The notes beneath the pieces were generated by a model. The model did not search any database and was not told the DNA's origin. It saw only the letters and a program-made list of their open reading frames with translations. This document shows positions 1 through 26,529 of a stretch of 33,007 nt of DNA, piece after piece. A program made the translations under genes and the position numbers. Each line of letters opens with the position of its first letter. Position 1 is the stretch's first letter. The stretch is from Candidatus Moraniibacteriota bacterium (lineage in GTDB: Bacteria > Patescibacteriota > Minisyncoccia > CAIUEV01): positions 1 through 33,007 of the forward strand of contig VGKB01000004.1 of the NCBI GenBank assembly GCA_016867255.1. The letters run 5' to 3'.

Positions 1-1023
1 ACCGACCTGCTTAATTATTCCCAGCTTTTTGAGTTTTTGCAGTTTAAGTTGGGCGGTTCTCTTGGAAGATTTTGTTATATCCATCATGTCTTTTACGGTT
101 ATTTTTCCTAACTGGTCAACAAAATCCAAAATTTCCTGTTGCTCCTCGTTTAAAAATACTTTTAAGTTAACGCTTTCAGCTATTTTTTTGTTAGATAAGG
201 CCAGAACTTTTTTTCTAATATTGCTGATCTCTTCTTCAAAACCACCCACAAAATATTCAAGCCAGAATGTAAAATCCGCTTTTCCATTATGATACTTTTC
301 ACCAGTATTTACGGCTCTGTAGTAGGATTGCCTGTCGCGGTTGTAATAATCTTCCAGAGCGAAAAGGCGGCGAAAATCATAGCCCATTTTATAGAGTATC
401 AGGGTTGCCATTGCCCTTGCCGTCCTCCCATTGCCATCATTGAAAGGGTGAATGGCGGCGATCTCGATATGGGCAATGCCGGCCACTATGACTGGATTGG
501 TTCTTTGCTCCTCGTTTTCGTTTATCCAAGCAATCAAATCCTTGCATAAGTCCGGCACTTTTTTTTCACTTGGACCAGTATAAACAACCTGGTCGGGAAA
601 ACCTATCCGCCGCTTAACGACGTAAATGGGATTTTTCCGGTAAAGTCCGGATTGTTCTTTTGGCAGGGTTTTATTCGTCACCAGTTTATGGATATGCAGA
701 AAAACCTTTTCGGTAATGGGTTTTTTAGAAGCTACGATACCTCCGATATACTTGAGGGCTTTGAGATAGTTTTGTACTTCATGGATGTCTCTTTCGGGCG
801 CGTTAATCCTTTTACGGGCTAATATCTCTCCTACTTCCTTAACGTTCAGTCTGTTTCCTTCTATAGCGGTTGAGCTATGGGTCATTCTTATCAAAGCCTG
901 CCTCCTCAACCTGATTTCTTGGAGCGGAAGTATCTTCGCGCGCTCGATAATCGCCTTTGCTTCCGCGATAGCAGTCAGTGTTTTTAAAATTCCATCGGTA
1001 ATTTTGTACTTTGGCTTAAACAT
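1..1023 (-). CDS. Fic family protein (C-terminus runs off the left window edge)
   Basis: Minus-strand translation from ATG at 1023 gives MFKPKYKITDGILKTLTAIAEAKAI...RMTHSSTAIEGNRLNV...AAIHPFNDGNGRTARAMATLILY...; Fic core HPFNDGNGRTAR and inhibitory-type (S/T)xxxE(G/N) motif SSTAIEGN; winged-helix-like C-terminus. Open to the window edge, so absent from the ORF track. Confidence 0.93.
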   Translation of the reverse strand, partial: MFKPKYKITDGILKTLTAIAEAKAIIERAKILPLQEIRLRRQALIRMTHSSTAIEGNRLNVKEVGEILARKRINAPERDIHEVQNYLKALKYIGGIVASKKPITEKVFLHIHKLVTNKTLPKEQSGLYRKNPIYVVKRRIGFPDQVVYTGPSEKKVPDLCKDLIAWINENEEQRTNPVIVAGIAHIEIAAIHPFNDGNGRTARAMATLILYKMGYDFRRLFALEDYYNRDRQSYYRAVNTGEKYHNGKADFTFWLEYFVGGFEEEISNIRKKVLALSNKKIAESVNLKVFLNEEQQEILDFVDQLGKITVKDMMDITKSSKRTAQLKLQKLKKLGIIKQVG

Positions 1024-1067
1024 AACTTAATTTAGCGATTCAATATGTTTGTATTCTAAACCAAAAA

Positions 1068-1100
1068 AATAATCGCGCAATAATCGCGCAATAATCGCGC
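1068..1100. repeat. Three perfect tandem copies of 11-bp AATAATCGCGC
   Basis: Read directly: aataatcgcgc x3 upstream of the fic-like gene. Confidence 0.9.
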
Positions 1101-1110
1101 AAAAAAAACC

Positions 1111-1230
1111 GGGATTTTGTCCCTGCGTTGCTCTTCCATAGCTTTAGCGTAGGATAGCCCGTCCTGCTTGGTTCCACTGGCTTGCATTGAGCTTGCCTGC
1201 AGTGAGTTTGTCGAACTGTCGAAGTGCTCC
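1111..1230. repeat. 120-bp dispersed intergenic repeat, copy 1
   Basis: gggattttgtccctgcgttgctcttccatagctttagcg...gtcgaactgtcgaagtgctcc; matches 3974-4093 with 4 differences by eye. Confidence 0.9.
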
Positions 1231-1323
1231 AAAAGCTCGACAGCTTTAGAACCTGTTTAATGGAAACAGTTTAATTTTACCCCACAGCACTTCTCACTAT
1301 ATTATTTTGGCAAAAAATTTAAT

Positions 1324-1351
1324 AAGCCAGTCCGATTACTCAGACTGGCTT
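1324..1351 (-). terminator. Hairpin terminator downstream of the 1374-1787 gene
   Basis: AAGCCAGTC/GACTGGCTT 9-bp stem; minus strand continues into ATTAAATTTTTT. Confidence 0.65.
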
Positions 1352-1373
1352 TCTTAACGTTTGGCCTCATTTG

Positions 1374-1787
1374 CTACTGAACGACTTCGTATGTTCCCGG
1401 CGGTATCGAATACATATCCAATACCTTGGGCATTAGTTCTTCAAGAATCTCTGCCTCCTCGACTTTACCGGCCTTTGCTAGAGCCTCTATCACTGCTGGC
1501 GCATAGGTCAACCGGCTGCCGGGAGGCAAGCCGAAGTCCTTGCCAGTCTGCTCCTTGATTTGCTCGACTGTGAAAATGGTGTCAACCTTTAGCCCAACCA
1601 TAGCCTCGCGAACTTCCAAGGGGACATCCTCATCCGGGCTGGGCTTAGTAATCAATACCGTTACCCATTTGCCAGTGTAGAATACTCCTAGGGTATCCAG
1701 CGGAGCCGCCACTTCGCCATTAGACCCGTGAATCATAATCGTCCCCGGTACTCTGCTTTTTCCTACTACCCTCAACTTTTCGCTCAT
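1374..1787 (-). CDS. Hypothetical protein, 137 aa
   Basis: Intact ORF, 4 bp downstream of the nucleotidyltransferase gene, terminator follows; SD-like aggaggt upstream. Confidence 0.75.
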   Translation of the reverse strand: MSEKLRVVGKSRVPGTIMIHGSNGEVAAPLDTLGVFYTGKWVTVLITKPSPDEDVPLEVREAMVGLKVDTIFTVEQIKEQTGKDFGLPPGSRLTYAPAVIEALAKAGKVEEAEILEELMPKVLDMYSIPPGTYEVVQ

Positions 1788-1791
1788 TTAA

Positions 1792-2631
1792 TCACCTCCT
1801 GACTTCCTGTTTGCTCAAATGGTCGAGGTTTGATCTCGCAAAATTGAGGACTTTTGGAATGACGGCCACGATTTCCCTAAGAACTTCGAAATAAAGCTCT
1901 CTATCCTTTTGAATCAGTTGACGCTCTACACATTGACTGTAATGTTCATCGAGGGCGACGATTTCTTGAAGTAAGGAGCTAGCTGCTTTGATGTTCAGAC
2001 TGGCGTAAATATCCAGCACCTCTTTTTTAGAGTCGCCGCTTTTGAACTTGCGATCGGCGCACTGGATCATCTTTCGCGCCGCATAGATGGGAAACTCGAG
2101 AGCTTTCTGCAGAAAAACGTACGGTCTCTCAAAACGGAGAACTGGAAAAGCGGCCGAACCTTTTTCCAACTTTCTGATCTTGTGGATTAGATAAAGGCGG
2201 GTATCCTCCCAGTAGGATAAGGGGTTGGGATGGATCAGTTCAACAGGATTTCTCTTGATAATGCCGCCCCTTTCTACCGATAAACGGAGGTGGTCTATGA
2301 AGGTTGAATTGAAATGGTGATTCGGCGTAGCCGCGAGCTTGTCATCAAGGGGAATCATTTCCAGCGGGATATTCTTTTTCGAGGACTCGATCTCCAATCG
2401 CTGAAATACCTTCATAGCGTCTGCTCTTTTTTGCCAATCGTAGACAGCCACACAGTCAATGTCGCTTCTAATATTATAGTCGCCCCGAACGTAAGATCCG
2501 CACACCAAAGCCCCCTTTATCGCGGGACTATTGGAAAGCTTTGTTTCCAGTAAGCAACAAAGAATATCGAAGCTTTCCAGTTGAGGAACGTAATGGTCTG
2601 TGATCTCTTCCCAGGCAAATACTCTTCCCAT
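1792..2631 (-). CDS. Nucleotidyltransferase-domain protein (Pol beta superfamily / MNT-like)
   Basis: Motif GSYVRGDYNIRSDIDCVAVYD (GSxxRG...SDID). Confidence 0.85.
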   Translation of the reverse strand: MGRVFAWEEITDHYVPQLESFDILCCLLETKLSNSPAIKGALVCGSYVRGDYNIRSDIDCVAVYDWQKRADAMKVFQRLEIESSKKNIPLEMIPLDDKLAATPNHHFNSTFIDHLRLSVERGGIIKRNPVELIHPNPLSYWEDTRLYLIHKIRKLEKGSAAFPVLRFERPYVFLQKALEFPIYAARKMIQCADRKFKSGDSKKEVLDIYASLNIKAASSLLQEIVALDEHYSQCVERQLIQKDRELYFEVLREIVAVIPKVLNFARSNLDHLSKQEVRR

Positions 2632-2733
2632 TGTATTCTCTCCTTTCAGGTGGAAATGAAGACATTTTAAGTTAAAGAGCTTGACCTATCCTTATAGAGG
2701 ATTAAAAAGGTTTTGTGAAGGATATAAACAAAT

Positions 2734-2757
2734 AACCGCATGATTTGCGGTTTTTGG
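2734..2757 (-). terminator. Putative terminator (may be bidirectional)
   Basis: AACCGCA...TGCGGTT followed by TTTTT on + and ATTTGTTT on -; downstream of the 2892-3872 gene. Confidence 0.45.
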
Positions 2758-2891
2758 TCGTTGCTCTCAATCGTAGCCACTTGTCCGTCCGTAGCTCTGT
2801 ACTTCCAAAAGGGCGGGGCAAAGGCGGAACGTTAGAACTGTTTTTGAGAAAAGGGGCACAATTATTTACATTCCAAATCTGGATTAAGCCC

Positions 2892-3872
2892 TTAAACCTC
2901 ACTGATTACGTCGAATCCTTTGAAGCTGCCGGTGATGGTGAGTCCGATAATTTTCCCCCGGCAGAGGCCGCGAGCGTGGATTTGGGAGGCGATTTCGTTG
3001 ATAGTGGCACCGGAACCGACTGCGTCGTCGATGAGCAAAATATTATTGTATTGGCCGGAATCGTTCACCACAAAAGTTTTTTGGGCGTTTTCCACCCGGT
3101 CGGATAGTTTATTGAGAGTTTTTTGGGGCACGATAATATCCGTTTTTATCTTGGTTATCGAGAGCTTTCTCTGGCGGAGGTTCAGATTTTTTGCTAGTTC
3201 TTTCATAAATTGTACTTCCCTTTTGACAGTCGGCGGCACGAAACCAACCCCGTCAATGCGGTACTTCTTCAGGATGAAGTTAATTTGCGGTTTGACGTCG
3301 GCCACCAACTCTTTAATCAATTTTTTATTCTGGCTCTGTTTGGCGTACAATAGCAGTTGGCCGAGTTTGGTTTTGCCAAAACGTTCAATACTATAAAAAT
3401 CCAGATAGAATAGTTCATCCAACCAAACCTTAGGAAAGGTGCTTTTCATTTTTTCCAGACCGCTAATCAGGTTTCCATTTCTGATATTTCTGAAAGCATC
3501 ATATTTTTTAAGGGTCTTTATGTATTCCTTGGCGGTTTTTTCGGGCGGTTGTTTGGTTTTTCCGCACCAATACAAAAAACCTTTCCAGCCTTCCCTTCTC
3601 TCGCCGGTTGGAGTGATGATCAAAAACCGGCCGTCGATGGCTTCTCTGGTTTTTTTGTTTATGGTCACCGCTACTCTTTTCTCGGCTTTTTCTTGTATCA
3701 AATAAAAAACTTTCGGCGGTTTGCCGATTTTGGTAATTTTCTTACTTTCCAACAAATTTTTGAGTTGTTTTCTTACAGCTCTGTCCGTCATTTCCAAAAA
3801 TTCGGCTAGTTCGCTGCCGCTGGATTGCCCTTTATTTTTTAGAAAATCCAAAATTTTTTCCGAGGTCTTCAT
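2892..3872 (-). CDS. N-terminal winged HTH fused to C-terminal phosphoribosyltransferase domain
   Basis: HTH: SSGSELAEFLEMTDRAVRKQLKNLLESKKI; PRPP loop: NILLIDDAVGSGATINEIA. Confidence 0.8.
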   Translation of the reverse strand: MKTSEKILDFLKNKGQSSGSELAEFLEMTDRAVRKQLKNLLESKKITKIGKPPKVFYLIQEKAEKRVAVTINKKTREAIDGRFLIITPTGERREGWKGFLYWCGKTKQPPEKTAKEYIKTLKKYDAFRNIRNGNLISGLEKMKSTFPKVWLDELFYLDFYSIERFGKTKLGQLLLYAKQSQNKKLIKELVADVKPQINFILKKYRIDGVGFVPPTVKREVQFMKELAKNLNLRQRKLSITKIKTDIIVPQKTLNKLSDRVENAQKTFVVNDSGQYNNILLIDDAVGSGATINEIASQIHARGLCRGKIIGLTITGSFKGFDVISEV

Positions 3873-4297: not shown

Positions 4298-5440
4298 ATG
4301 AAAGAAGAAGGCATTTTAAAGCGTATTTCGGCTATAACAGGAATCGATAGACTGGTCGAAAAATTGGCGTTGCTTTCGCAAAAAGACTGGCAGTCCCTAC
4401 TACTGTATGCATTTGAGGAGAGAGCCGGCAGACTCTCAGTTAACCACCTCCTCGATCAAGTGCATAATAGTAGATTTACACAACCTAGTGCGCTCTCACA
4501 GAGGGCAATCGTTGGTCTTGAGCATAATGCGATCAATCTTCTTCCCCAAGAATTCGAAGCAATCGAACTTTCGCCTGTTGTTCCTTTTGGGACAAACCGT
4601 ATTCTGGCAGGAACAAATCAGAAAAACATTCTTTCCACGTCACGGAACCTAGAAGTAACCGCAGATCCTACTACCGCACTGGCTTTAGAGTGTGCTAGAC
4701 GACGGTCACAACTAATCCGAAATTCCTCAACTGTCGCTAACCCTGTTCGACTGGCTACAATCCAACGGAACATCCGTCTCCAAAGCTTTGAGAAAATTCC
4801 TGGTTTCATGCCTCATTTCAAGGTTCTTGCACTGGAAACAGCGGGATGTGAAAAGCCAGATTGGCCTTTTAAAATCGCCAGTCTATTAGAGCACCTAACA
4901 TACTATTTGCGATTTATCTGTTTTTTGATTAAGTCCGGATACCATTTTCAAGGAGTGATCGTTAATATCTCTAATATTCGGATAGCCGAGAAAATCATCC
5001 AGAACAAAGGTCTTAGTCGAAAAGAGGTTGGGAGAGAAACTCAAAATTCAGCCTTCAGTATTTTCGAAGCGGCAGGAATTTCTTTTCCATCAATAGTTAG
5101 TGATCTCCGGGTGCTGGATGTAGAATCGCAATTCAATTATGGGATCAAATATTTTATCGACGCCCTAAAGGAAGTCGAAGAAGCGATAGTTACCCCTATG
5201 AAATCAAATATTCCAGATATTTATTGGGAATTCGACCTCGAGAGAATTGCCGGGATGGGCTATTATACCGATCTATGTTTTAAAATCACAGCTAAAAACC
5301 GACTTGGCTACACTTATCCTTTAATTGACGGAGGATTCGTTGACTGGACACAAAAACTCCTTCTGTCAAAGAAGGAACAACTTCTTATTAGTGGAGTCGG
5401 ATTAGATATTCTACTTCAAAATTTTCATGAAAGAGTATAA
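4298..5440 (+). CDS. Divergent class II aminoacyl-tRNA synthetase-like protein (HisRS/HisZ-like core), 380 aa
   Basis: SD cggagg upstream; motif-2-like NPVRLATIQRNIRLQSFEKIPGFMPHFKVLALETAG; C-terminal DLERIAGMGYYTDLCFKI...PLIDGGFVDWTQKLL...ISGVGLDIL resembles HisRS D..RGLxYYTG..FE / GGRYD.L / GxGxGxeRL. Confidence 0.5.
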   Translation: MKEEGILKRISAITGIDRLVEKLALLSQKDWQSLLLYAFEERAGRLSVNHLLDQVHNSRFTQPSALSQRAIVGLEHNAINLLPQEFEAIELSPVVPFGTNRILAGTNQKNILSTSRNLEVTADPTTALALECARRRSQLIRNSSTVANPVRLATIQRNIRLQSFEKIPGFMPHFKVLALETAGCEKPDWPFKIASLLEHLTYYLRFICFLIKSGYHFQGVIVNISNIRIAEKIIQNKGLSRKEVGRETQNSAFSIFEAAGISFPSIVSDLRVLDVESQFNYGIKYFIDALKEVEEAIVTPMKSNIPDIYWEFDLERIAGMGYYTDLCFKITAKNRLGYTYPLIDGGFVDWTQKLLLSKKEQLLISGVGLDILLQNFHERV

Positions 5441-5443
5441 CAA

Positions 5444-5475
5444 GGCTACATACGGAAGTATGTAGCCTATTTGTT
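5444..5475 (+). terminator. Strong hairpin terminator
   Basis: GGCTACATAC-GGAA-GTATGTAGCC perfect 10-bp stem then TATTTGTTT, immediately after the stop at 5440. Confidence 0.85.
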
Positions 5476-5486
5476 TGGTAATAGGA

Positions 5487-6518
5487 TCATGACACCCCAC
5501 TTTCAAGAATAGAAAATTCGTTTTTTTCCGAATTTAAAGAGCTCATTATCCCCATTGGAATTGTTATAATCGGTGACGCATGGCCGATGTTTGCATTATA
5601 GAGAATGGGGTATGAACATCCTCTTGTATAATATTCAATATATTTCTTTAAAGTCTCAACATCTTTTGGCTTATAGAAATAAGGCCTTCCAATAATTAGC
5701 CCTTTTATTGAAGAAAAAACTCCTAAATTATCCATGTCTGATAAGTACGAATCTAGTGATGAAAGAGGCAAAGGGCTGGCTGGGTTATCTCCCTCTGGGA
5801 GATCTAAGAATAATATTTTATCTTTAAGGTCAATCCAATACTCTGTTCCTGCCAAATGGTTTAGCGAGGGAATTGTTCCTCCCCATAATTCCCCTTTTGT
5901 TTTGCCTTGTTTCCACCACTCATACCCCTTATTTTTCTGTAATCGACGCGGTCTGGTAAGATCCTTTTTGGCAAACCAATCAAGAAATTCTTCCGTCCAT
6001 TCAAATGAAGGATTTATTATTCCAATTGGGTCAGTCTTTGAAGTGGCTTTTTCAAAATGTTCTCGAGTATAGGTAAGCATTTCAGAAAATTCACCAAACT
6101 CGGACATTAAACAGGGACCATAAAATGTTCTCAATCTAGATTTCTTTGCAAATGCCAAATGTAGAACGGTAATGTCAGAATAACCTAAAAAAATTTTTGG
6201 ATTTTTGGCAATCATCTCAAAATCGAGATATTTTAAAACCTGATTGGAATGATTTCCTCCGATACTGCATATAATAGCCTTTATATTATCATCGGCAAAC
6301 ATTTGGTTGATATCTGCTGCTCTTTCTTCGGGCAACGCCGAAACATAGCCAGCTTGCTCCAAGGCATGGCTCGAAAATTTTACATTAAACCCCATTTTTT
6401 CGAGCATTGCCTTTCCATTATCAATACGGTGAGGAAAGAGAGGGGCGAGTCCAGCGGATGGAGAAATAATGCCGATTGTTTGTCTTTTCTTAATATGTTC
6501 TGGGTTAATTAAGTTCAT
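5487..6518 (-). CDS. S66 peptidase, MccF-like / LD-carboxypeptidase family
   Basis: Nucleophile motif NPKIFLGYSDITVLHLA; TFYGPCLMSEFGE; EWTEEFLDW...RPRR; GELWGGTIPSLNHLAGTEYW; ILFLDLPEG; GHASPIITIPMG (catalytic His region). Order of blocks matches E. coli MccF as recalled. Confidence 0.88.
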   Translation of the reverse strand: MNLINPEHIKKRQTIGIISPSAGLAPLFPHRIDNGKAMLEKMGFNVKFSSHALEQAGYVSALPEERAADINQMFADDNIKAIICSIGGNHSNQVLKYLDFEMIAKNPKIFLGYSDITVLHLAFAKKSRLRTFYGPCLMSEFGEFSEMLTYTREHFEKATSKTDPIGIINPSFEWTEEFLDWFAKKDLTRPRRLQKNKGYEWWKQGKTKGELWGGTIPSLNHLAGTEYWIDLKDKILFLDLPEGDNPASPLPLSSLDSYLSDMDNLGVFSSIKGLIIGRPYFYKPKDVETLKKYIEYYTRGCSYPILYNANIGHASPIITIPMGIMSSLNSEKNEFSILESGVS

Positions 6519-6542
6519 TTAGCCTAAGTTAAAAAAATAATA

Positions 6543-7397
6543 TTATTTTCTTGCCGCAGTAAAAATATTCATGCCCCGATTAACTACTGTTGGTTTCGAG
6601 TTATGTGCCATTTCTATTTTAAAAGCATTTTTAAAATATTTTTTATTTTCTAATGCTTTTGAAATTTGGCTTCTTTGTTTATTCTTCGGATCGAAATCTT
6701 CCAGTCCAGGTTGGATAAACACAGGTATCCCATAAGTTTTTTCTATTTTAAATCCAGCGTTTGACAACAATTTTTCCATCGATTCTTTCGAAAAAACATT
6801 TAGAAATGGCACATGATTAGCCCACTTTACTGTATAATCCTTTTCAATGTTTCCGATTTCCTCAATTGATGCAAAATAATTGTTCATCTTGGAATACAAA
6901 GCATTATAATATCCGTGGCCCATTATTATAATTACCCCTCCTTTTTTTAAGACCCTATACATTTCTTTGGTAGCTTTTTCCTTATCGTAAATAAAACTAA
7001 TTGGACTATATATACTAATAATACAATCAACTGACCCTGTTTCGATTTGATTAATATTAGTTAAATCCCCTTTTGTCACTGTCACTCGTTGTTGAATGTC
7101 TGACCGAGAAATATTTTTCTTAGCTTTTTCAAGCATGTCATCTGACAAGTCATATAGAATAAATCTACACTTATAGTCCTGACTAAGTTTACAAACCCAT
7201 CGTCCTGTTCCTCCACCTGCATCCATAATGATGTCGTTTTCTTTTATAGATTTAGCTGGTATATTTTTGAGAATAATTTTCCTGATTATAGCGTCCGATA
7301 ATTTCCAAAAAGCAGAGTTGTCGGCGATATCGACATTTTGAGAATATGGTTTGAAAAATTTAATAAACTCCTCTTTTGAGATCTTTTTTTTGTTCAT
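6543..7397 (-). CDS. Class I SAM-dependent methyltransferase
   Basis: Motif I IIMDAGGGTGRWVCKL, acidic LYDLSDDMLEKA, VDCIISIYSPISFI. Confidence 0.88.
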   Translation of the reverse strand: MNKKKISKEEFIKFFKPYSQNVDIADNSAFWKLSDAIIRKIILKNIPAKSIKENDIIMDAGGGTGRWVCKLSQDYKCRFILYDLSDDMLEKAKKNISRSDIQQRVTVTKGDLTNINQIETGSVDCIISIYSPISFIYDKEKATKEMYRVLKKGGVIIIMGHGYYNALYSKMNNYFASIEEIGNIEKDYTVKWANHVPFLNVFSKESMEKLLSNAGFKIEKTYGIPVFIQPGLEDFDPKNKQRSQISKALENKKYFKNAFKIEMAHNSKPTVVNRGMNIFTAARK

Positions 7398-7405
7398 TAT
7401 TCTTT

Positions 7406-8527
7406 TTAAGGATAAATTTTGATGTTTTTTAGCCGAGGATAAACAGTTGCGTCCCGAATCGACTTATGAGCTAATGCCCAAGTTACAAATCTTTCAATTC
7501 CTAAGCCAAATCCGGAAGTGATTTTATAACTGGATTGTCTTCTAAGGTTTATATACCACTCGTAGGGCTTAGGTGAAAGATTTTTTTGCCGTTTTAATGA
7601 TTCGTACATCTCTTCTGGCTTGTCTTGACGCTGGCCGCAACCTACAATTTCTCCACCAAAAGAATTATTAGCTAATGGTGGGAAAAGCAGATCGGCATTG
7701 AGCACTTTATCTGAAGATTTTGGGTGGGGTTTTTGATAGAATGGTACCCGATCCCGATCATAATACATAACCCAAAGCGGAGTTTCAATTTTTAGTATTC
7801 TCATTAATTCAACTTCTCCTTCAGCCGAGATATCTCTACCATGATCGGTAAAGTTTATCAAATTTTTCTTATTGTTTGTAACTAGAATCTCAATTGCTTT
7901 GTCAAAAGTTAGTTTTGGAAAATTCTTACAATCCGCCAGTTGTTTCAGTGCTCTTTTGGTTGCCATGGGATCAGAACTAATTTTATCAACCATTTTTTCC
8001 ATAAAAAGAATGATCTGACATAGAACCTTAACATATCCTTCTATAATTGGCATAATCATTTTCAATGTCCCAATCATTTCAAATTCACAATGATAGAATT
8101 GATTTAAATGTCGTTTATCGCAATCTTCTCCACGCATGGACGGTAGATAACAATATAATTTTTCAAATCCATTTAGTAAGAGAGGTTCAAATCCAAATTG
8201 AGAAGAATCAACCAGGTATGTCTTAAGATTTCCAAACTTTATGGGTATTGGTTTAGAATCAGAGCCCGGCCCAGAAGGAGACGAAACGCTAGGTGATAAC
8301 ATAAATAAATCAACTGATTTTGCATTCTGCTTTTCTGAAAAATAATAGTCTGAAACCTTACGAATGTAGTGACGCAAAGTGATTAGCGCATAGTAGTAAT
8401 TACAATTTGTTAAATCTAAATAGTGTTTTTGGGGATCATACAATGGGACGAGACAATTTTGGCGTTTGCACTTTTCGTATAATTTGTCTTCCTTCCGAAG
8501 ATTTTCTTTAATTACTTTTATACTCAT
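7406..8527 (-). CDS. Class II aaRS-like catalytic core (AsnRS/AspRS or archaeal-type asparagine synthetase A-like), no N-terminal OB-fold
   Basis: Motif 2 region YLVDSSQFGFEPLLLNGFEKLYCYLPSMRGEDCDKRHLNQFYHCEFEM; motif 3 SGFGLGIERFVTWALAHKSIRDATVYPR. ORF track starts at 8560; ATG at 8527 (MSIKVIKEN) is the likelier start because an A/T-rich -10-like sequence overlaps the first codons. Confidence 0.85.
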   Translation of the reverse strand: MSIKVIKENLRKEDKLYEKCKRQNCLVPLYDPQKHYLDLTNCNYYYALITLRHYIRKVSDYYFSEKQNAKSVDLFMLSPSVSSPSGPGSDSKPIPIKFGNLKTYLVDSSQFGFEPLLLNGFEKLYCYLPSMRGEDCDKRHLNQFYHCEFEMIGTLKMIMPIIEGYVKVLCQIILFMEKMVDKISSDPMATKRALKQLADCKNFPKLTFDKAIEILVTNNKKNLINFTDHGRDISAEGEVELMRILKIETPLWVMYYDRDRVPFYQKPHPKSSDKVLNADLLFPPLANNSFGGEIVGCGQRQDKPEEMYESLKRQKNLSPKPYEWYINLRRQSSYKITSGFGLGIERFVTWALAHKSIRDATVYPRLKNIKIYP

Positions 8528-8629
8528 AATATTTTTCGAAATATAATATTTATATCGCATAAATTTTTGTGATCGACAATACTCTACAGCATTTTTTAGC
8601 GAATATTTAATTTAAAAAGCCAAAAATGA

Positions 8630-8659
8630 TTGACAAAAGCAAAATTTATATTGCATAGT
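8630..8659 (+). promoter_or_regulatory. Candidate sigma70-type promoter for the LeuRS-like gene
   Basis: TTGACA (8630-8635), 18-nt spacer, CATAGT (8654-8659). Confidence 0.35.
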
Positions 8660-8750
8660 ATATTAAACCTGATAAGGTCGTTCCTTAAAAAACAAGCTCC
8701 TATACCTAGTGACGGAGCTTTAGACAAATCTATTTCAGAGGAGAACCGTC

Positions 8751-10670
8751 ATGTACGATTTCAAGAGAGCCGAGGCTTTTTGGCAAGAGTTTTGGGAAAG
8801 GGAACATCTGTTCGATATGCCACAGAACGAATCTCGTGAAAAGTTCTATGTGCTGGGAATGTATGCTTACCCTTCCGGAGACGCTCACATGGGACACGTC
8901 CGAAATTATACAATCACAGACGTTATTGCCCGCTACAAAAGAATGAATGGGTGCAACGTTCTTCACCCCACAGGATGGGACGCATTTGGACTGCCGACCG
9001 AAAATGCTGCTTTCAAGAGAAACATTGAACCGCAGAAGTGGAATACTGAATGTACCGCCAAGATGAAGCAGCAGTTCCAAAAACTGGGATTCAGTTATGA
9101 CTGGGACAAGGTCATCGATACTTCTCATCCGGAATATTATCATTGGACACAATGGCTACTCATCCGGTTCTGGGAGAAAGGTCTTCTTTATCGAGATATC
9201 AGAGAAGTTAATTGGTGCCCAAGCTGCAACACAGTGCTCGCTAATGAACAGGTCGAGAATGGAAAATGTGAACGATGTAAAAGTGTTGTCATTCCAAAAA
9301 AGACAACACAGTGGTTTCTGAAGACGACGGCTTACGCTAATCGTTTAACAGAGGACCTCAATTTGTTGAAGGATTGGCCACCTCGAGTCATTGCGATGCA
9401 ACGTAATTGGATTGGTAAACAAAAAGACGGCTCTTTCCGTCTGCGTGATTGGTGTGTATCACGCCAACGCTATTGGGGGGCACCTATCCCTTTCGTGATC
9501 TGTCCTAAGTGTGGGATTAGGCCCGTTCCTGACCAGGAATTACCAGTCAAGTTGCCATTGGGAGTAGATATTACGCCCGGTTGGCCTCCTCCTTTAGCAA
9601 GAATCCCGTCATTTGTTGAGACAACTTGTCCAAAGTGTGGAGGCGCTGCGGAGAGAGCGACCGATGTGCTTGACACATTTGTCTTCTCCGCATGGTACTT
9701 TCTCCGATTTACTGATCCGCACAACACAAAAGCCCCGTTTGATAGTAAGTGGCAAAGCTACTGGATGGATGTTGACTTATACGTCGGTGGAGTGGAGCAT
9801 GCAACGGTGCATCTGATTTATGCCCGTTTCTTTCACAAGGTTCTGTATGACCTCGGGCTAGTCGACCGCCCAGAACCTTTTAAACGATTATTTGTTCAGG
9901 GGATGGTGTGTCTCAAAGGTGAAAAAATGTCCAAATCGAAGGGCAACATTGTGACACCAGTCGAGATACTCGACCAATTCGGGGCTGATGCCTTGCGAGC
10001 CTACATCCTTTTTGTAGGTCCTCCTGAGTTAGACGTCGATTGGCAGGATAACGGCATTCGTGGTTGCCACCGGTTCGTGGAAAGAATGTACTCTGTGCTC
10101 ACCAGAGTATCAGAACAGCACTTTCAAAAGGATTGGCGTCGGCTGATTACTCGAGAACAGTTGGCAGATGCCGATATTCAATTCCGTGGTCATGTTCATC
10201 GCACCATCTCTCGGATAACAGAAACGATTGAAAAAACCTACCACTTCAATACGGTGATTTCAGCTTTTATGGAGGTGCTGAATAACTTCGAGGAGTATCT
10301 GAAGACATCAGTAAACCCAGTAGTAGTAAGTGAAGCGGTGGAGATCTTAACCTTGGTACTTTCCCCTTTTGTCCCACATCTGGCTGAAGAGGTCTGGCGA
10401 AATTCTTTGGGCCAGTCTAATAGTGTTTGCGTCCAGCGGTGGCCTAGTTACGAACCTTCATTGGCTTTCCAAGGAGATTTCCAGATAATAATTCAAGTCA
10501 ACGGGAAGAAAAAGGGCGTTCTGGACTATGATGACAACCAAAGACCTTCGAAAGAAGAAGTTGAAGAATCCGCTCTCAAATTTCTCCGAAATAAAGAAGT
10601 GGTTCTTTCTGAAGGTGCGCGTTTGATCTATGTTCCAAACCGTGTAATAAACTTTATTACCAAAAAATAA
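8751..10670 (+). CDS. Leucyl-tRNA synthetase-like protein lacking the CP1 editing domain, 639 aa
   Basis: SD gaggag; HMGH (HIGH) and KMSKS signatures; Zn CPSC...CERC; text runs NWIGK-QKDGS-FRLRDWCVSRQRYWG, where an editing domain is normally inserted; C-terminal VNGKKKGVLDYDD...IYVPNRVINFITKK matches the LeuRS C-terminal domain. Confidence 0.9.
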   Translation: MYDFKRAEAFWQEFWEREHLFDMPQNESREKFYVLGMYAYPSGDAHMGHVRNYTITDVIARYKRMNGCNVLHPTGWDAFGLPTENAAFKRNIEPQKWNTECTAKMKQQFQKLGFSYDWDKVIDTSHPEYYHWTQWLLIRFWEKGLLYRDIREVNWCPSCNTVLANEQVENGKCERCKSVVIPKKTTQWFLKTTAYANRLTEDLNLLKDWPPRVIAMQRNWIGKQKDGSFRLRDWCVSRQRYWGAPIPFVICPKCGIRPVPDQELPVKLPLGVDITPGWPPPLARIPSFVETTCPKCGGAAERATDVLDTFVFSAWYFLRFTDPHNTKAPFDSKWQSYWMDVDLYVGGVEHATVHLIYARFFHKVLYDLGLVDRPEPFKRLFVQGMVCLKGEKMSKSKGNIVTPVEILDQFGADALRAYILFVGPPELDVDWQDNGIRGCHRFVERMYSVLTRVSEQHFQKDWRRLITREQLADADIQFRGHVHRTISRITETIEKTYHFNTVISAFMEVLNNFEEYLKTSVNPVVVSEAVEILTLVLSPFVPHLAEEVWRNSLGQSNSVCVQRWPSYEPSLAFQGDFQIIIQVNGKKKGVLDYDDNQRPSKEEVEESALKFLRNKEVVLSEGARLIYVPNRVINFITKK

Positions 10671-10708
10671 TAATGTAATCGAGGAGAACAAGAGATTGCT
10701 CTCTCACA

Positions 10709-10740
10709 GGACAGTTATGAGATAACTGTCCCTTTTTATT
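10709..10740 (+). terminator. Strong hairpin terminator
   Basis: GGACAGTTAT-GAG-ATAACTGTCC perfect 10-bp stem followed by CTTTTTATTATT. Confidence 0.85.
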
Positions 10741-10766
10741 ATTAAATGCAATATTTGTATCAAAAT

Positions 10767-10802
10767 AAAAAGAGGGTAATAAATATTTCTTACCCTCTTT
10801 TC
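10767..10802 (-). terminator. Hairpin terminator for the amidohydrolase gene (bidirectional look)
   Basis: AAAAGAGGGTAA...TTACCCTCTTTT. Confidence 0.7.
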
Positions 10803-10820
10803 TCTCCATAACTTATTTCT

Positions 10821-11840
10821 TCAAAAGAAGTACACATTTTTAGCATTTTTGAAAAAAATGGAGTCAAGTACCGATTTGCATCTAGGATACATTTTTTCAA
10901 TGGCTTCCCGTAACGATAAGAGAGCTTGCCAATGTAGATGAGTGGCGTTTTTAGCTAAATATCCATACTCAACATATTCATTGTAATCTACCCAATGATA
11001 TGGATAAGCACTCGCCATTCTTTCCCCAAGTTGTGGGTTTTGGTATAAAATCCCCCTGATCATATTTATTGGCGCATCAGTTCCAAAAAGCAATCGTTCA
11101 TAACCAAAAACTTTCAAAGCAGAGCCTATTATAAGGCTTGAAATAACTAGTGCTGTGTCAAAAAACAGGTTTGGATATTTCTTGATCTCCCGATAATCTT
11201 TTTCGATGTTTTTGGATTCGTAAGATGGTACTCCCAAATGAGCAAGTACTACAATAAGTTTTGGAAAATCAATCATCAACTGTTTAACTTCGTTAGTAAT
11301 CTCCTCAATTCGTCTTGGAAGGTGGAGAATTATGGGAGTTTTGTTGTTTTGGCAAAATTCTAAGATTTCTGGACGGAAAAAATCGTAGATATGGCTATAT
11401 GGCGGAAAAGTTTGCCAGGGATACATTTTCAAAGCTGCACATTTTGAGGATTTTATAGCTTTTACTGTATAATCAACTTCATCTGGGATTCCCATAATAG
11501 CAAATCGATCGGGCTGGTTTATCTGTTTCTTGAAATACTTATTTGATGAATAGAAGTCAATTCCAACAAAAGGACATGGAATAAAAAGGGATTTAACAAA
11601 TCTTCCTGGAAAAAGAATCTGATTTAATTTAGTTGACTTTTTTAAATCAAAGTCTAAAAAAGTTGATGCTGGATGACTTAAGAGAAAATCATGACTCGTA
11701 ATAAGGTTGGGAACATTGATGTGAGAATGTGAATCAATAATTTTTTCTGGGAGCCAATATAACAATTGTTCTCTTAGTTTAACTTCGCTTCTAGTTAAGG
11801 AAAAAGAGTATTTCTCATAATTCCATTTTAACTTTTCCAT
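10821..11840 (-). CDS. Amidohydrolase-family metal-dependent hydrolase (TIM barrel)
   Basis: IIDSHSHIN, IILHLPRR, IVVLAHLG, RLLFGTDAPINMI. Confidence 0.82.
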   Translation of the reverse strand: MEKLKWNYEKYSFSLTRSEVKLREQLLYWLPEKIIDSHSHINVPNLITSHDFLLSHPASTFLDFDLKKSTKLNQILFPGRFVKSLFIPCPFVGIDFYSSNKYFKKQINQPDRFAIMGIPDEVDYTVKAIKSSKCAALKMYPWQTFPPYSHIYDFFRPEILEFCQNNKTPIILHLPRRIEEITNEVKQLMIDFPKLIVVLAHLGVPSYESKNIEKDYREIKKYPNLFFDTALVISSLIIGSALKVFGYERLLFGTDAPINMIRGILYQNPQLGERMASAYPYHWVDYNEYVEYGYLAKNATHLHWQALLSLREAIEKMYPRCKSVLDSIFFKNAKNVYFF

Positions 11841-11967
11841 TGCTTATCTCCTTTTTAAAGAACAGTTATTTGGATAGATTTATTTATCCAAACTTAATTA
11901 TTATGTAACATAAGTTTATTTTAAATCAAGTAAAACAAACACATGATTATACGGTTTTCTGACGTTG

Positions 11968-11982
11968 GCTCTGGGGGCCGGA
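11968..11982 (-). repeat. Duplicate of the tRNA-Asn 3' end with flank (gctctgggggccgga)
   Basis: Identical 15-mer at 12160-12174 at the 3' end of the intact tRNA. Confidence 0.7.
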
Positions 11983-12128
11983 GTCTCACGTCCCCCGCCA
12001 TTCGGCGGGGTCTCAATAGGGCTTCCGCCCTCTTGTCCTCGTCGTTACACTCCTCAGTCACCCCGAACGGGGAAAATACTTTTCCCCGACCCCCTTTGGT
12101 TCGAATCGTGACCCCAAAACAAAACAAA

Positions 12129-12158
12129 AAATCCCGCCATAAGGCGGGGATTTTTGTT
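12129..12158 (-). terminator. Terminator of tRNA-Asn
   Basis: ATCCCGCC-ATAA-GGCGGGGAT; minus strand has T-runs after the stem. Confidence 0.7.
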
Positions 12159-12161
12159 TGC

Positions 12162-12232
12162 TCTGGGGGCCGGATTCGAACCGGCGACCAAGTGGTTAAC
12201 AGCCACCTGCTCTACCACTGAGCTACCCCAGA
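12162..12232 (-). tRNA. tRNA-Asn (GTT), CCA not encoded
   Basis: Minus strand TCTGGGGTAGCTCAGTGGTAGAGCAGGTGGCTGTTAACCACTTGGTCGCCGGTTCGAATCCGGCCCCCAGA; 7-bp acceptor stem, GGTGG/CCACT anticodon stem, loop CTGTTAA. Confidence 0.95.
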
Positions 12233-12281
12233 ATGATAGATAATTTATAAACCATGATTTGAATCTAGGAAAGACAGTCTC

Positions 12282-12359
12282 TCCGCCTGCGGCGGACCTG
12301 CTCCCCGCCCGACTGGACGACGCCAGTCGTTCGGGCGGGTACCACTGAGCTACCCCAGA
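12282..12359 (-). pseudogene. tRNA-Asn 5'-half fragment split by palindromic insertions
   Basis: Minus strand TCTGGGGTAGCTCAGTGGTA + CCCGCCCGAACGACTGGCGTCGTCCAGTCGGGCGGG + GAGCAGGT + CCGCCGCAGGCGG; the first and third blocks are contiguous in the intact tRNA. Confidence 0.75.
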
Positions 12360-12604
12360 AATTATAGAACCTGAAACATGAAACAGTCTCTTCTTATCGG
12401 AGTAAATCTAAGCCCCGGGTTACTGCTTAAGATGGTAACAAAAAGCCAACTCTTTGACGAGAGCGCACTGCTAAGATAAATCAAAAAATGGGAATTGTAA
12501 ACCCTATGTCAGGGGGTTTGTGGAATACTGTGCAAGATAATTTACTGCGAAACTTGTGGCTTTAGGACGGGGCAAATATCTGTAAGCGACGCATAATATT
12601 AAAG

Positions 12605-12632
12605 TTGACAACGTTTTCATTTAAGGTAAAAT
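12605..12632 (+). promoter_or_regulatory. Sigma70-type promoter for the 12703 gene
   Basis: TTGACA (12605-12610), 16-nt spacer, TAAAAT (12627-12632). Confidence 0.55.
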
Positions 12633-12702
12633 AGTTATAAGAAAAATTTAGACGGGTCTTTTGCCTTTTCATTTAACAAAAATAAATATCTAAAACAAAA
12701 AC

Positions 12703-13746
12703 ATGCAAAAAACAACAACTCTGTTGGGAGCAATGGTGTTTGTATCCGGGTTGTTTTTCACGGGGAATGCGTTGGCTTTTGACAATCCCGACGAAGACGA
12801 CATTTTCTGGGAGACTTTAAGCGCGATGGACAACCCTAATGATGTGGATGGCTGCAAAGCGAAAATTGACGAGCTGTGGGCATCGGGAGAACTAAACAGA
12901 TATGATGTGGAAAGAAGGAGAGAAGCCGGACAGACCGTTCCCGACTCTGAATTGTATGATATGAGCGAAGGACATCGGGTGTCTATGACCGCGGGCTATT
13001 ACAATTCTTGCGAAGGATTGGACGAGGGCTTTGAAATAATGCGTAGCTCTATGGAGCAATACGGCAAAACTTCCAATATTTGGGATATGGCCGACTGGCA
13101 CAATGTAACCGGTTTGTATTTCCAAAGCGCGGGAGAAGGAAGAATTGATTTTACCAGAACATTGGATTTTATGTCTTACCGCTTTCAGATTTTTATGCAA
13201 AACCTCCCCAATTTGTTGGTTTTCCAAGATGGATATATCAGTTTGAACGCCGAAATGGTTTCAGAGCTCAAGAACTATGGGGCGGTACTCACGATGTACG
13301 GTTTGAATTTCTCGGAAACCCCGGATATTTATGTTGACGGAGTGTTGGCCGATTCTTCCGATGTGAGTGACATCACATATGATTCCGGCGCCGGAACGCT
13401 TTCCTTTACCGCCAGCCACTTCAGCTCCTATCGAGCAGTAACCAAGGGATCCAAACAAAGCGTGATGAAACTAACCGGGACTACCAAAAAGAGCATCAAG
13501 TATAACGCGAGGAAAAGCACGTTTAAGGTGAAAGCGAAAGGGAAAGGGCTAAGGAAATCAGGTACTTCTACCATCTGTCGGCTGGGCTTCACTGAAGCTA
13601 CCAAGGTTAGTGTTTCCAAAAAAGGGAAGAGCGTGGTTTGCGTCTTCCCGATGAGCGAATTTTCCCAGACCGGCTATTATCCCCTCACGATTTCCATATC
13701 CGGAAAGGGCGAGGTATCCCGCCAAAACGCAATTAGAATCAAGTAA
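12703..13746 (+). CDS. Secreted hypothetical protein with signal peptide
   Basis: MQKTTTLLGAMVFVSGLFFTGNALAF signal peptide; basic Ig-like C-terminal segment. Confidence 0.8.
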   Translation: MQKTTTLLGAMVFVSGLFFTGNALAFDNPDEDDIFWETLSAMDNPNDVDGCKAKIDELWASGELNRYDVERRREAGQTVPDSELYDMSEGHRVSMTAGYYNSCEGLDEGFEIMRSSMEQYGKTSNIWDMADWHNVTGLYFQSAGEGRIDFTRTLDFMSYRFQIFMQNLPNLLVFQDGYISLNAEMVSELKNYGAVLTMYGLNFSETPDIYVDGVLADSSDVSDITYDSGAGTLSFTASHFSSYRAVTKGSKQSVMKLTGTTKKSIKYNARKSTFKVKAKGKGLRKSGTSTICRLGFTEATKVSVSKKGKSVVCVFPMSEFSQTGYYPLTISISGKGEVSRQNAIRIK

Positions 13747-13855
13747 TTGAGCTGAGAATTTGTTTTAGCGCTTTAGAAGAACAATAGATGTTTCCCCTAT
13801 ACAATTGGGTATAGTTATTTTATAGTCTGAGTTACCGTACGTTTCCTAAACTTTG

Positions 13856-14821
13856 GCTATGAAATATTTTGCTAAAGTGGTTTTGTTTTTTTTAATTGCC
13901 GCGGCTGGCTTTGTCTTGTTGCGCTATTTTAACTGGTTTACGCCGAAAGAGCCCTTAGACTTTTCCGGAGAAAAAACGGTTACCGTGAGTGACAACGGCT
14001 TGGAGCATAAAATGACTACCAAGGCCCCCGATGTCGGCGCGGCGCTAACGGAAAATAACATTCAAACGGGAGAAAAAGATGAAATTATCCCGCCGCGGGA
14101 GACGGCGGTTTTTCCCGGCATGAATATTATCATCAACCGGCAGGCGCGGGTGAAAATTTACGCGGACGGAAAAGTTTTAGAAAAAACTACTTTAACTAAA
14201 ACTGTTTCCGCCGCGCTGGCGGAGAGTGATATCGCCCTGGGCCACGCGGACGAGGCGGATCCGCACCCGGAAACCCGGTTAAGCGACGGTCTGGAGATAA
14301 AAATAACCAGGGTCAATACCGAGGAAATTACCGAAGAGGAGCCGATTGATTTTGAAACGGTGGAGAAAAAAGACAAGCAAGTTGATTGGGGCTTAAAGAA
14401 AATTACCAAAGAAGGGGAAAAGGGTGTGCGGGAAGTTAGCTACAAAATAACCTACAAAAACGGCAAGGAAACCAAAAGGGTCAAATTGGCTTCAAAAATA
14501 ACCAAAAAACCGGTGGCAGAAGTCGTGAGCATCGGCACCCGGCTTAATATTGGGAAGAGCAAGACGGGAATTGCCAGCTGGTATAACGCGGATCTTGATG
14601 AGTGCGCTTCCCGCGACCACCCTCCCGGCACCTGGCTGCGGGTTACCAGCATTGCAAACGGCAAACAGGTTTTTGTCCGGGTGGCCGGCTACGGGCCCCA
14701 AGAAGGCACGGGGAAACTCATTGATCTGGATAACAAGTCGTTCAAACAAATCGCGTCTTTAGGACAGGGGGTAGTGAGGGTAAAAGTGGAGGAAATTTTA
14801 AACAAGAATTTTAAACCGTAA
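13856..14821 (+). CDS. Membrane-anchored DUF348 (x2)-G5-DPBB (RlpA/Rpf-like) cell-wall protein
   Basis: TM MKYFAKVVLFFLIAAAGFVLLRYF; ubiquitin-like DUF348 repeats; G5-like segment VREVSYKITYKNGKETKRVKLASKITKKPVAEVVSIGT; C-terminal TGIASWYN...FVRVAGYGP. Confidence 0.78.
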   Translation, partial: AMKYFAKVVLFFLIAAAGFVLLRYFNWFTPKEPLDFSGEKTVTVSDNGLEHKMTTKAPDVGAALTENNIQTGEKDEIIPPRETAVFPGMNIIINRQARVKIYADGKVLEKTTLTKTVSAALAESDIALGHADEADPHPETRLSDGLEIKITRVNTEEITEEEPIDFETVEKKDKQVDWGLKKITKEGEKGVREVSYKITYKNGKETKRVKLASKITKKPVAEVVSIGTRLNIGKSKTGIASWYNADLDECASRDHPPGTWLRVTSIANGKQVFVRVAGYGPQEGTGKLIDLDNKSFKQIASLGQGVVRVKVEEILNKNFKP

Positions 14822-25640: not shown

Positions 25641-26519
25641 CTAGAGTTTTTTCTCCTTTTTTTGAAGATAGGGAGAGAAAGTAAAAAGGGAACGGAATAC
25701 GCGTCCGCTAATAAGTTTTAGTTTGTTTTTAAGCCCCCGCGCCCTGATTTTCCTGTCAACTTCCTGCTCAGAGATTTCTTGGGGATTGATTTTTTTGTGG
25801 GGGAAGGCCAGAAGAAACCCCCAGACATTGGAGAAATACGGCATGAAATAGCGGTAAGAGTAAACCGCAGGGAAAATAGTTTGCAGGAGTCTTTTCAATT
25901 TAAAATGTTTCTTGTATTCCAATTCAGTTATCTCTGAAGAATGCATAGCCAGGACGCCTTCCGGTCTTAGATGTTTTTTAATGAGAGAATAAAAGTCTTT
26001 TTGGGATTTTATGGCTTTCGCGCCAAGGTCAAAAAACTCTACATCGGTGATGTCGGAAATAATAAGGTCGTATTCTTCATTGGAGTCGTTCAAGAAATTG
26101 CCGGCACTGTCTGTCACGAATTTTATTTTGGGATTATTGAAAGATCCTTGATGCACCTCCGGAAAGTGTTTTTTGAAAACTTTTACCACTTCCCTGTCAA
26201 TGTCAAGGGAAGTAATTTTGGCTACATTTTTGTATTTTAAGAGTTCCCGGGCCGTGGCGCCTTCGCCGGTGCCCAAGATCAAAATGTCCAGTTTCTTCTT
26301 TTCGGGGAGCAGCAGCATGGCAGGATGGATAAGGCATTCATGATAAACCCACTCGTCTTTTTCGGAACTTTGAGGGATGCCGTTAATGGAACAGCTTTTA
26401 CCAAAAAACTCCAAATCCATTATCTCAATTGTCTGGAAAGGGGTAGTTTTTTTCAGCAGCGTCTTTTTCTTTTTGAAATGGGGATGAACATAAGGCAGGT
26501 ATTTATCAACGTACCACAT
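25641..26519 (-). CDS. Spermidine synthase-like (polyamine aminopropyltransferase family)
   Basis: NGIPQSSEKDEWVYHECLIHPAML; ILILGTGEGATARELLK; SLDIDREVVKVFKKHFPE; YDLIISDITD. Track start 26540 is a TTG inside an A/T repeat; ATG at 26519 preferred. Confidence 0.8.
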   Translation of the reverse strand: MWYVDKYLPYVHPHFKKKKTLLKKTTPFQTIEIMDLEFFGKSCSINGIPQSSEKDEWVYHECLIHPAMLLLPEKKKLDILILGTGEGATARELLKYKNVAKITSLDIDREVVKVFKKHFPEVHQGSFNNPKIKFVTDSAGNFLNDSNEEYDLIISDITDVEFFDLGAKAIKSQKDFYSLIKKHLRPEGVLAMHSSEITELEYKKHFKLKRLLQTIFPAVYSYRYFMPYFSNVWGFLLAFPHKKINPQEISEQEVDRKIRARGLKNKLKLISGRVFRSLFTFSPYLQKKEKKL

Positions 26520-26529
26520 AAGGTAAATT

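Follow-up and report, generated by a model that had tools for sequence, protein, structure and literature searches.

A putative agrocin-84-like gene cluster with aminoacyl-tRNA synthetase-like proteins in a Candidatus Moraniibacteriota genome

Organization of the locus

The draft genome of a Candidatus Moraniibacteriota bacterium, a member of the Patescibacteria in the GTDB sense (GCA_016867255.1; 870 kb, 95% complete, 105 contigs), carries a group of six genes, three of which encode aminoacyl-tRNA synthetase (aaRS)-like proteins. The genes lie in the 33,007-nucleotide stretch analysed here (positions 1 to 33,007 of VGKB01000004.1, contig C4 of the assembly; hereafter the window). They encode a HisRS-like protein, an S66 peptidase, an S-adenosylmethionine (SAM)-dependent methyltransferase, an AsnRS-like protein, a second LeuRS and an amidohydrolase (Table 1), and are considered here as a possible relative of the agrocin 84 cluster. 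An earlier reading of the letters alone (the sequence-only reading) had described this layout and two hairpin terminators near 5444 and 10709. The six open reading frames (ORFs) were recovered with the same coordinates, strands and gaps, including a minus-strand block (AsnRS-like protein, methyltransferase, S66 peptidase, in this order) with intergenic gaps of 8 and 24 nt, and both hairpins were found. All family assignments except the HisRS-like one were confirmed with Pfam or NCBIfam.

Table 1. Genes and terminator-like hairpins of the locus (window positions)
Feature	Position	Strand	Basis or remark
HisRS/HisZ-like protein P0001, 380 aa	4298..5440	+	Motifs, weak profile matches, homologues in L053/L061
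Hairpin, 11 bp stem, terminator-like	5443..5468		z = -5.0; separates convergent ends of HisRS-like and S66 genes
S66 peptidase P0002 (MccF/LD-carboxypeptidase family), 343 aa	5487..6518	-	Pfam Peptidase_S66; predicted immunity enzyme
Class I SAM-dependent methyltransferase P0003, 284 aa	6543..7397	-	Pfam/NCBIfam
AsnRS-like (AgnA-like) predicted adenylating enzyme P0004, 384 aa	7406..8560	-	Pfam, tree, motifs, model
Second LeuRS P0005, 639 aa, without CP1	8751..10670	+	NCBIfam leuS_bact, PDB alignments
Terminator-like hairpin 3' of LeuRS gene	10709..10731	+	z = -2.9; between convergent genes
Amidohydrolase_2 family protein P0006, 339 aa	10821..11840	-	Pfam; cluster membership unproven

The AsnRS-like protein, the S66 peptidase and the methyltransferase

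The AsnRS-like protein matches Pfam tRNA-synt_2 (8e-31); among NCBIfam models, those for asparagine synthetase A and asnS scored highest, each below its cut-off. The protein consists of the catalytic core only and lacks the OB-fold anticodon domain. Class II motif 2 (R143, E145) and motif 3 (GFGLGIER, residues 350-357) are intact. The AlphaFold model has a predicted local distance difference test score (pLDDT) of 88, and its top solved fold match is an AsnRS with bound asparaginyl-adenylate (template modelling score, TM, 0.75). A tree of 43 rows separated 25 agn-like rows, including AgnA of pAgK84, from 18 canonical AsnRS/AspRS rows with branch support of 100/100. The signature SSPxGxGSDS, present in the window protein, occurs in most agn-like rows and in none of the canonical rows examined. 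AgnA, which is annotated as agrocin 84 synthetase, is 33.5% identical to the window protein, and the more distant relatives in general are about 33% identical. Closer relatives (45-63%) were identified in Falkow-, Portnoy-, Gracili-, Pacei-, Taylor-, Moran- and Andersenbacteria and other Patescibacteria, as well as in one Woesearchaeote and one gammaproteobacterial metagenome-assembled genome; Bradyrhizobium plasmids carry a relative with 55% identity. The gene was not found in 56 near relatives of the host, and viral contigs and phage records gave only distant AsnRS-type matches.

Both the S66 and the S66C domains are present in the S66 protein (Pfam Peptidase_S66, 3e-40), which is 33% identical to AgnC5 of pAgK84 and is the product of the only S66 gene found in the host genome. 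Ser114 and His313 are invariant in 14 cluster-set sequences. The usual catalytic Glu position is occupied by Asp (FLD/FID) in the window, L059 and L061 proteins, which makes the third residue uncertain. The top PDB matches are chains of the MccF/MccC family, ahead of murein carboxypeptidases; this is suggestive of a peptidase that cleaves aminoacyl-nucleotides rather than murein peptides.

The methyltransferase was assigned to class I (model match 5e-19) and is 60% identical to the L059 enzyme; its subfamily is shared by L050, L055, L057, L059 and L061. The amidohydrolase (Amidohydro_2, 5e-12) is AT-rich, as the core genes are. Its gene is present as the sequence-only reading had it, and its place in the cluster was assigned from proximity and composition; it may act as an accessory enzyme or simply be a bystander. 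In L063 a different Amidohydro_2 gene adjoins the AsnRS-like gene.

The extra LeuRS and the HisRS-like protein

The LeuRS of the cluster scored 732 bits with leuS_bact, above the cut-off, and its catalytic motifs and KMSKS are intact. The CP1 editing domain is missing, in agreement with the sequence-only reading: model positions 224-408 were unmatched, and alignment with Thermus LeuRS is interrupted at residue ~226. Over its whole length the protein can be aligned with PDB 3ziu (637 aa), the housekeeping LeuRS of Mycoplasma mobile. The two enzymes share the same domain loss and length; in contrast to 3ziu, the window enzyme is a second copy beside a full-length LeuRS (1004 aa, contig C1). LeuRS matches were obtained in 276 of 287 genomes of the phylum; among the matches listed, with the window excluded, the best aligned piece starts no earlier than residue 205 and none crosses the CP1 junction.

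A canonical HisRS is encoded on contig C73. Because separate canonical genes for LeuRS and HisRS are present in the genome, the LeuRS and the HisRS-like protein of the cluster are extra copies. An AspRS-type enzyme (445 aa, contig C29) and GatB (contig C18) are also encoded, and Asn-tRNA is presumably made by transamidation; the AsnRS-like protein is therefore dispensable for charging.

No Pfam, NCBIfam or PDB match was obtained for the HisRS-like protein. Weak profile evidence points to a HisRS-type core with RGxxYYT-like and GG-x-x-D-like motifs: the protein matches canonical HisRS at about 1e-4, and at 2e-4 over the RGxxYYT region in a profile-profile comparison, and a homologue matches hisZ at 1.2e-5. 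The C-terminal anticodon-binding domain is absent, and the motif 3 arginine is missing in all four members found. The AlphaFold model is poor (pLDDT 39) because only two relatives were usable; the fold matches listed for it, which give only a hint, are without exception to HisRS, HisZ or the HisRS-like domain of GCN2. The HisRS assignment made from the letters was right in direction, but the relationship is remote. In L053 and L061, homologues lie next to the same set of genes; a search of the 287 phylum genomes returned no relatives apart from weak matches to canonical HisRS. The protein is probably an accessory biosynthetic enzyme. A further relative, about 33% identical, is encoded on the Chroococcidiopsis plasmid pCHRO.01 (L106:10001-10960), where it stands alone among VOC and YciI genes with no core genes alongside.

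Recurrence of the core in other genomes

Besides the window, 16 close-branch loci were compared, namely 15 genome loci (mostly from Patescibacteria) and a Bradyrhizobium plasmid. An S66 peptidase gene lies within 5 kb of the AsnRS-like gene in 13 of them. Since S66 genes are rare in the phylum (46 in 287 genomes, distributed over 42 genomes and mostly without a close agn-clade AsnRS-like gene), the chance of finding one nearby is only about 0.002 per locus if the mean genome size is taken as 0.93 Mb. Two findings would have refuted the functional cluster of the sequence-only reading: that these are the only LeuRS, HisRS and AsnRS of the genome, or that homologues never co-occur elsewhere. Neither was the case; the LeuRS and the HisRS-like protein are extra copies, and homologues co-occur in other genomes far beyond chance. 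Of the loci without S66, L051 has an S51 peptidase instead, L055 ends 1 kb past the gene, and L062 has neither. It has been shown that S51 peptidases can also give resistance or immunity to microcin C (PMC9239234). Methyltransferases of three subfamilies adjoin in nearly all loci. One subfamily (E-value < 1e-20) includes the pAgK84 enzyme beside agnA and those of six genome loci, and is also found on Xenorhabdus, Bacillota and Streptomyces plasmids. Together, the AsnRS-like protein, the methyltransferase and the S66 peptidase make up a core that is seen again, with homologues of the AgnA clade, in unrelated genomes.

In about 10 loci there is also a second aaRS-like protein, whose type varies. 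The partner is AlaRS-like in L051, L052, L056, L058 and L063, LysRS-like in L059 and L064 (and in L050, a cut fragment read by eye), a ProRS in L061, HisRS-like in L053 and L061, and the PheS-related SrmL in L064. The accessory enzymes also differ by locus and include a carbamoyltransferase, a SAM decarboxylase, radical SAM enzymes, a pyridoxal-phosphate-dependent decarboxylase, an aminomutase-like protein and P450. In L056 an AlaRS-like domain is fused to an S66 peptidase (692 aa; 11868-13946, minus strand), and a second S66 gene lies 17 bp from the AsnRS-like ORF. A Peribacillus plasmid carries AlaRS, AlaRS-related, methyltransferase, AsnRS-like and S66 genes together. That the same core is joined by an interchangeable aaRS-like partner in scattered Patescibacteria, in an archaeon and on several plasmids suggests a compound family that has gone unrecognised.

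Several individual loci were observed that deserve mention in their own right. L064:9989-18526 (= L046) has genes for AsnRS-like, SAM decarboxylase, methyltransferase, nitrilase, carbamoyltransferase, S66, LysRS-like and PheS-related SrmL proteins; from this gene content, a product with aminopropyl and carbamoyl decorations is possible. A 360-aa protein resembling a class I aaRS core, for which neither Pfam nor NCBIfam gave a match, is encoded at L060:2670-3752 in an AsnRS-like/S66 locus, by an APH-type kinase gene and a NUDIX-like gene. The plasmid of Streptomyces sp. NBC_01707 (L110:9734-17876) carries AsnRS-like, methyltransferase, ProRS-like and S66 genes in a run, together with a xanthine-dehydrogenase-type (flavin adenine dinucleotide and molybdopterin) hydroxylase. 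Phosmidosine consists of proline, 8-oxoadenosine and an O-methyl phosphoramidate; the L110 gene content would fit phosmidosine or a relative and is offered as an unverified lead. On a Pantoea agglomerans plasmid (L069:7479-9074), a GNAT acetyltransferase is fused to an agn-clade AsnRS-like domain, beside an MFS transporter gene; similar matches to this fusion were obtained in six Pantoea plasmid records.

Comparison with known systems

The sequence-only reading knew of no described system with this combination of genes. This did not hold: pAgK84 of Rhizobium rhizogenes/Agrobacterium radiobacter K84 carries agnA, a methyltransferase gene, agnB2 and the MccF-like agnC5. AgnA is a truncated AsnRS homologue without an anticodon domain, and AgnB2 is a self-immunity LeuRS (PMC4392301, PMC5059758). 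The window and the agrocin 84 cluster share an AsnRS-like protein of this kind, an adjacent SAM methyltransferase, an extra LeuRS and an MccF-like peptidase (PMC4392301). They differ in that the window adds a HisRS-like protein, its LeuRS lacks CP1 and is of the Patescibacteria type, and its methyltransferase belongs to another subfamily. The contig also bears a ValRS gene (19763-22525), and we therefore regard the window cluster as chromosomal, whereas pAgK84 is a conjugative plasmid. No counterparts of agnC1-C4/C6/C7, agnD or agnE were recognised among the window ORFs. Because these agnC/agnD/agnE acyl and sugar genes were not recognised, the cluster is classed as agn-like and not as an agrocin 84 cluster.

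The cluster most similar in architecture is on the megaplasmid of Xenorhabdus bovienii CS03 (L070), where AsnRS-like, methyltransferase, S66, leuS and ProRS-like genes stand in one run. It has the same five-part set including a further class II aaRS-like protein; however, this fifth protein is ProRS-like rather than HisRS-like, the LeuRS retains CP1, and nucleoside phosphorylase, VOC protein and MFS transporter genes are present. The idea that editing domains are generally missing from the extra full-length aaRSs was also considered and rejected: the AlaRS copies of the clusters match AlaXM editing models, AgnB2 retains CP1 as does the Xenorhabdus LeuRS, and a ProRS that lacks the insertion is the usual form in these genomes.

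N-acyl phosphoramidate bonds occur in both agrocin 84 and microcin C, and in microcin C the bond is made by MccB. A domain of the MccB (ThiF-like adenylyltransferase) type was not detected in the window proteins scanned, and there was no sign of a ribosomal precursor peptide; activation in the window system would instead use the AsnRS-like enzyme. Microcin C clusters combine an MccF-type S66 immunity peptidase that acts on acyl-nucleotides with a product that mimics an aminoacyl-adenylate and targets an aaRS (PMC9239234), and the same is predicted for the window. In microcin C, the bond that MccF hydrolyses is the acyl-nucleotide amide (PMC9239234).

Proposed function and alternative explanations

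Taken together, these data lead us to propose, with a probability of about 0.62, that the locus is an agrocin-84-like biosynthesis-plus-immunity cluster for an aminoacyl-nucleotide inhibitor of the acyl-phosphoramidate type. The sequence-only reading had guessed at an aminoacyl-nucleotide-type compound and had mentioned the agrocin 84 LeuRS; both went in the right direction. The AsnRS-like enzyme, freed of tRNA by loss of its anticodon domain, would make an acyl-adenylate and convert it to a stable acyl-nucleotide (an N-acyl phosphoramidate). The HisRS-like protein, as second aaRS-like partner, may help to choose or load the acyl part, and the methyltransferase would decorate the product. The S66 peptidase would cleave the acyl-nucleotide amide within the producer, like MccF. 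Like AgnB2, the CP1-less LeuRS would sustain leucine charging when the housekeeping LeuRS is inhibited by the product; LeuRS is the predicted target because the extra LeuRS would act as a spare one. In other loci that have a full-length extra aaRS, that enzyme would likewise be the spare target.

Several observations weigh against this proposal. The window LeuRS groups with Patescibacteria LeuRS and not with AgnB2 in the tree (branch lengths: window 1.75, AgnB2 1.84, median 0.67). At the AgnB2 resistance positions T42, A102, Q573 and Q413 (PMC5059758), it has P, C, M and R, and one of the four differs from the norm (the N105 equivalent is Cys). Since the AgnB2 residues are mostly absent and the protein groups elsewhere, resistance of the window LeuRS, if it exists, was gained independently. 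Only the window, pAgK84 and Xenorhabdus have a LeuRS gene next to the AsnRS-like one, the LeuRS and HisRS-like genes have a GC content unlike that of the core genes, and the methyltransferase subfamily is not the agn one. No exporter gene was found within the cluster among the window ORFs, and genes for the methylpentanamide (acyl) and sugar parts of agrocin were not recognised there. The AgnA reaction and the formation of the agrocin acyl-phosphoramidate are not explained in the literature found. Every reaction step, the product and its activity are predictions drawn from the observed homology, linkage, spare copies and intact motifs.

The lack of an exporter would also suit an island that only confers immunity to an aminoacyl-nucleotide inhibitor made by a neighbour or host, in which S66 cleaves the inhibitor, the spare LeuRS provides a bypass, and no compound is synthesized. 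An S66 peptidase and a duplicate target are both known routes to resistance (PMC9239234, PMC5059758). We consider this explanation unlikely: the AsnRS-like, methyltransferase and HisRS-like proteins have no obvious role in resistance, the AsnRS-like clade contains an annotated synthetase, AgnA, and the set recurs with biosynthetic-looking decarboxylase, aminomutase-like, carbamoyltransferase, SAM decarboxylase and P450 genes.

Base composition raises the question of whether two separate things lie side by side, with an AT-rich, agn-like AsnRS-like/methyltransferase/S66 block inserted between a HisRS-like gene and a duplicated LeuRS gene, neither of them related to it. The S66, methyltransferase, AsnRS-like and amidohydrolase genes have a GC content of 0.32-0.37, against 0.415 for the HisRS-like gene, 0.459 for LeuRS and a reference of about 0.44. 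Because GC content divides the block, parts of the cluster may differ in history, and LeuRS is not common to the other Patescibacteria loci. On the other hand, HisRS-like homologues adjoin the same core in L053 and L061, and LeuRS does so in pAgK84 and Xenorhabdus, which makes a chance juxtaposition improbable.

A role in primary metabolism, with the AsnRS-like protein acting as an archaeal-type asparagine synthetase (AS-AR) among unrelated neighbours, was suggested by the top NCBIfam model (asparagine synthetase A, PRK06462 type, below cut-off) and by the fact that AS-AR likewise has no anticodon domain. The candidate assignment of the protein as closer to AS-AR than to AsnRS was rejected, as the family profile gave 148 bits with AsnRS 1x54 against 53 bits with AS-AR 3p8t, and AS-AR was absent from the 50 best fold matches of the model. 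The protein groups with AgnA in the tree (which has no AS-AR row, the AS-AR comparison being one of profile scores), its distribution is patchy, and its gene shows tight linkage with those for S66 and aaRS-like proteins; such a role is quite improbable. Least probable by our estimate is tRNA-dependent chemistry or tuning of translation, in which extra aaRS-like proteins would alter charging (for example, mistranslation by a LeuRS that, without CP1, is unable to edit in the usual way and whose domain loss is not seen among the matches listed from the 287 genomes) and the methyltransferase and S66 would act on peptides, since the AsnRS-like and HisRS-like proteins have no anticodon-binding domains and the partner aaRS type changes by locus while the AsnRS-like protein and S66 stay constant.

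The proposal of an agrocin-84-like cluster can be extended, tentatively and at somewhat less than even odds, to a modular family of antibiotic clusters in Patescibacteria and at least one Woesearchaeote. In such a family, the AsnRS-like protein, methyltransferase and S66 peptidase would be constant and would make and inactivate an aminoacyl phosphoramidate nucleotide, a swapped aaRS-like partner (HisRS-, AlaRS-, LysRS-, ProRS- or PheS-like) would set the amino acid, and each product would attack a different aaRS.

Genomic surroundings

The AT-rich core and the absence of the AsnRS-like gene from the near relatives are consistent with horizontal gain. A tRNA-Asn(GTT) gene (12160-12232, minus strand) lies about 320 bp past the amidohydrolase gene and may be where the AT-rich block integrated. 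Just upstream of the cluster (window 1-3872), genes for a Fic protein (SoFic model, 6e-56), a nucleotidyltransferase and a winged-helix plus phosphoribosyltransferase protein (PsyrT model, 5e-19) were identified, which look like toxin-antitoxin or defence genes. Defence-system models gave no convincing match to the core genes of the cluster. A spermidine-synthase-like gene and an amidohydrolase (Amidohydro_1) gene with an 11 bp overlap are located at 25641-27549 on the minus strand.

Significance

Agrocin 84 is the classic plasmid-borne Trojan-horse inhibitor. No description of such clusters in Patescibacteria was found in our literature search, whose coverage left out most subscription journals. 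If the extension to a modular family is correct, reduced cells that live on other microbes make their own aaRS-targeting toxins. If the core recurs with a changing partner, a general chemistry (AsnRS-like protein, methyltransferase and S66 peptidase) can be separated from the part that confers specificity. The phosphoramidate-forming step could then be tested with small, soluble enzymes, and there would be a rule by which sequence predicts the target. It would also mean that small-genome, mostly host-dependent bacteria invest in specialised antimicrobial chemistry that falls outside the signatures of non-ribosomal peptide synthetases, polyketide synthases, and ribosomally synthesized and post-translationally modified peptides.

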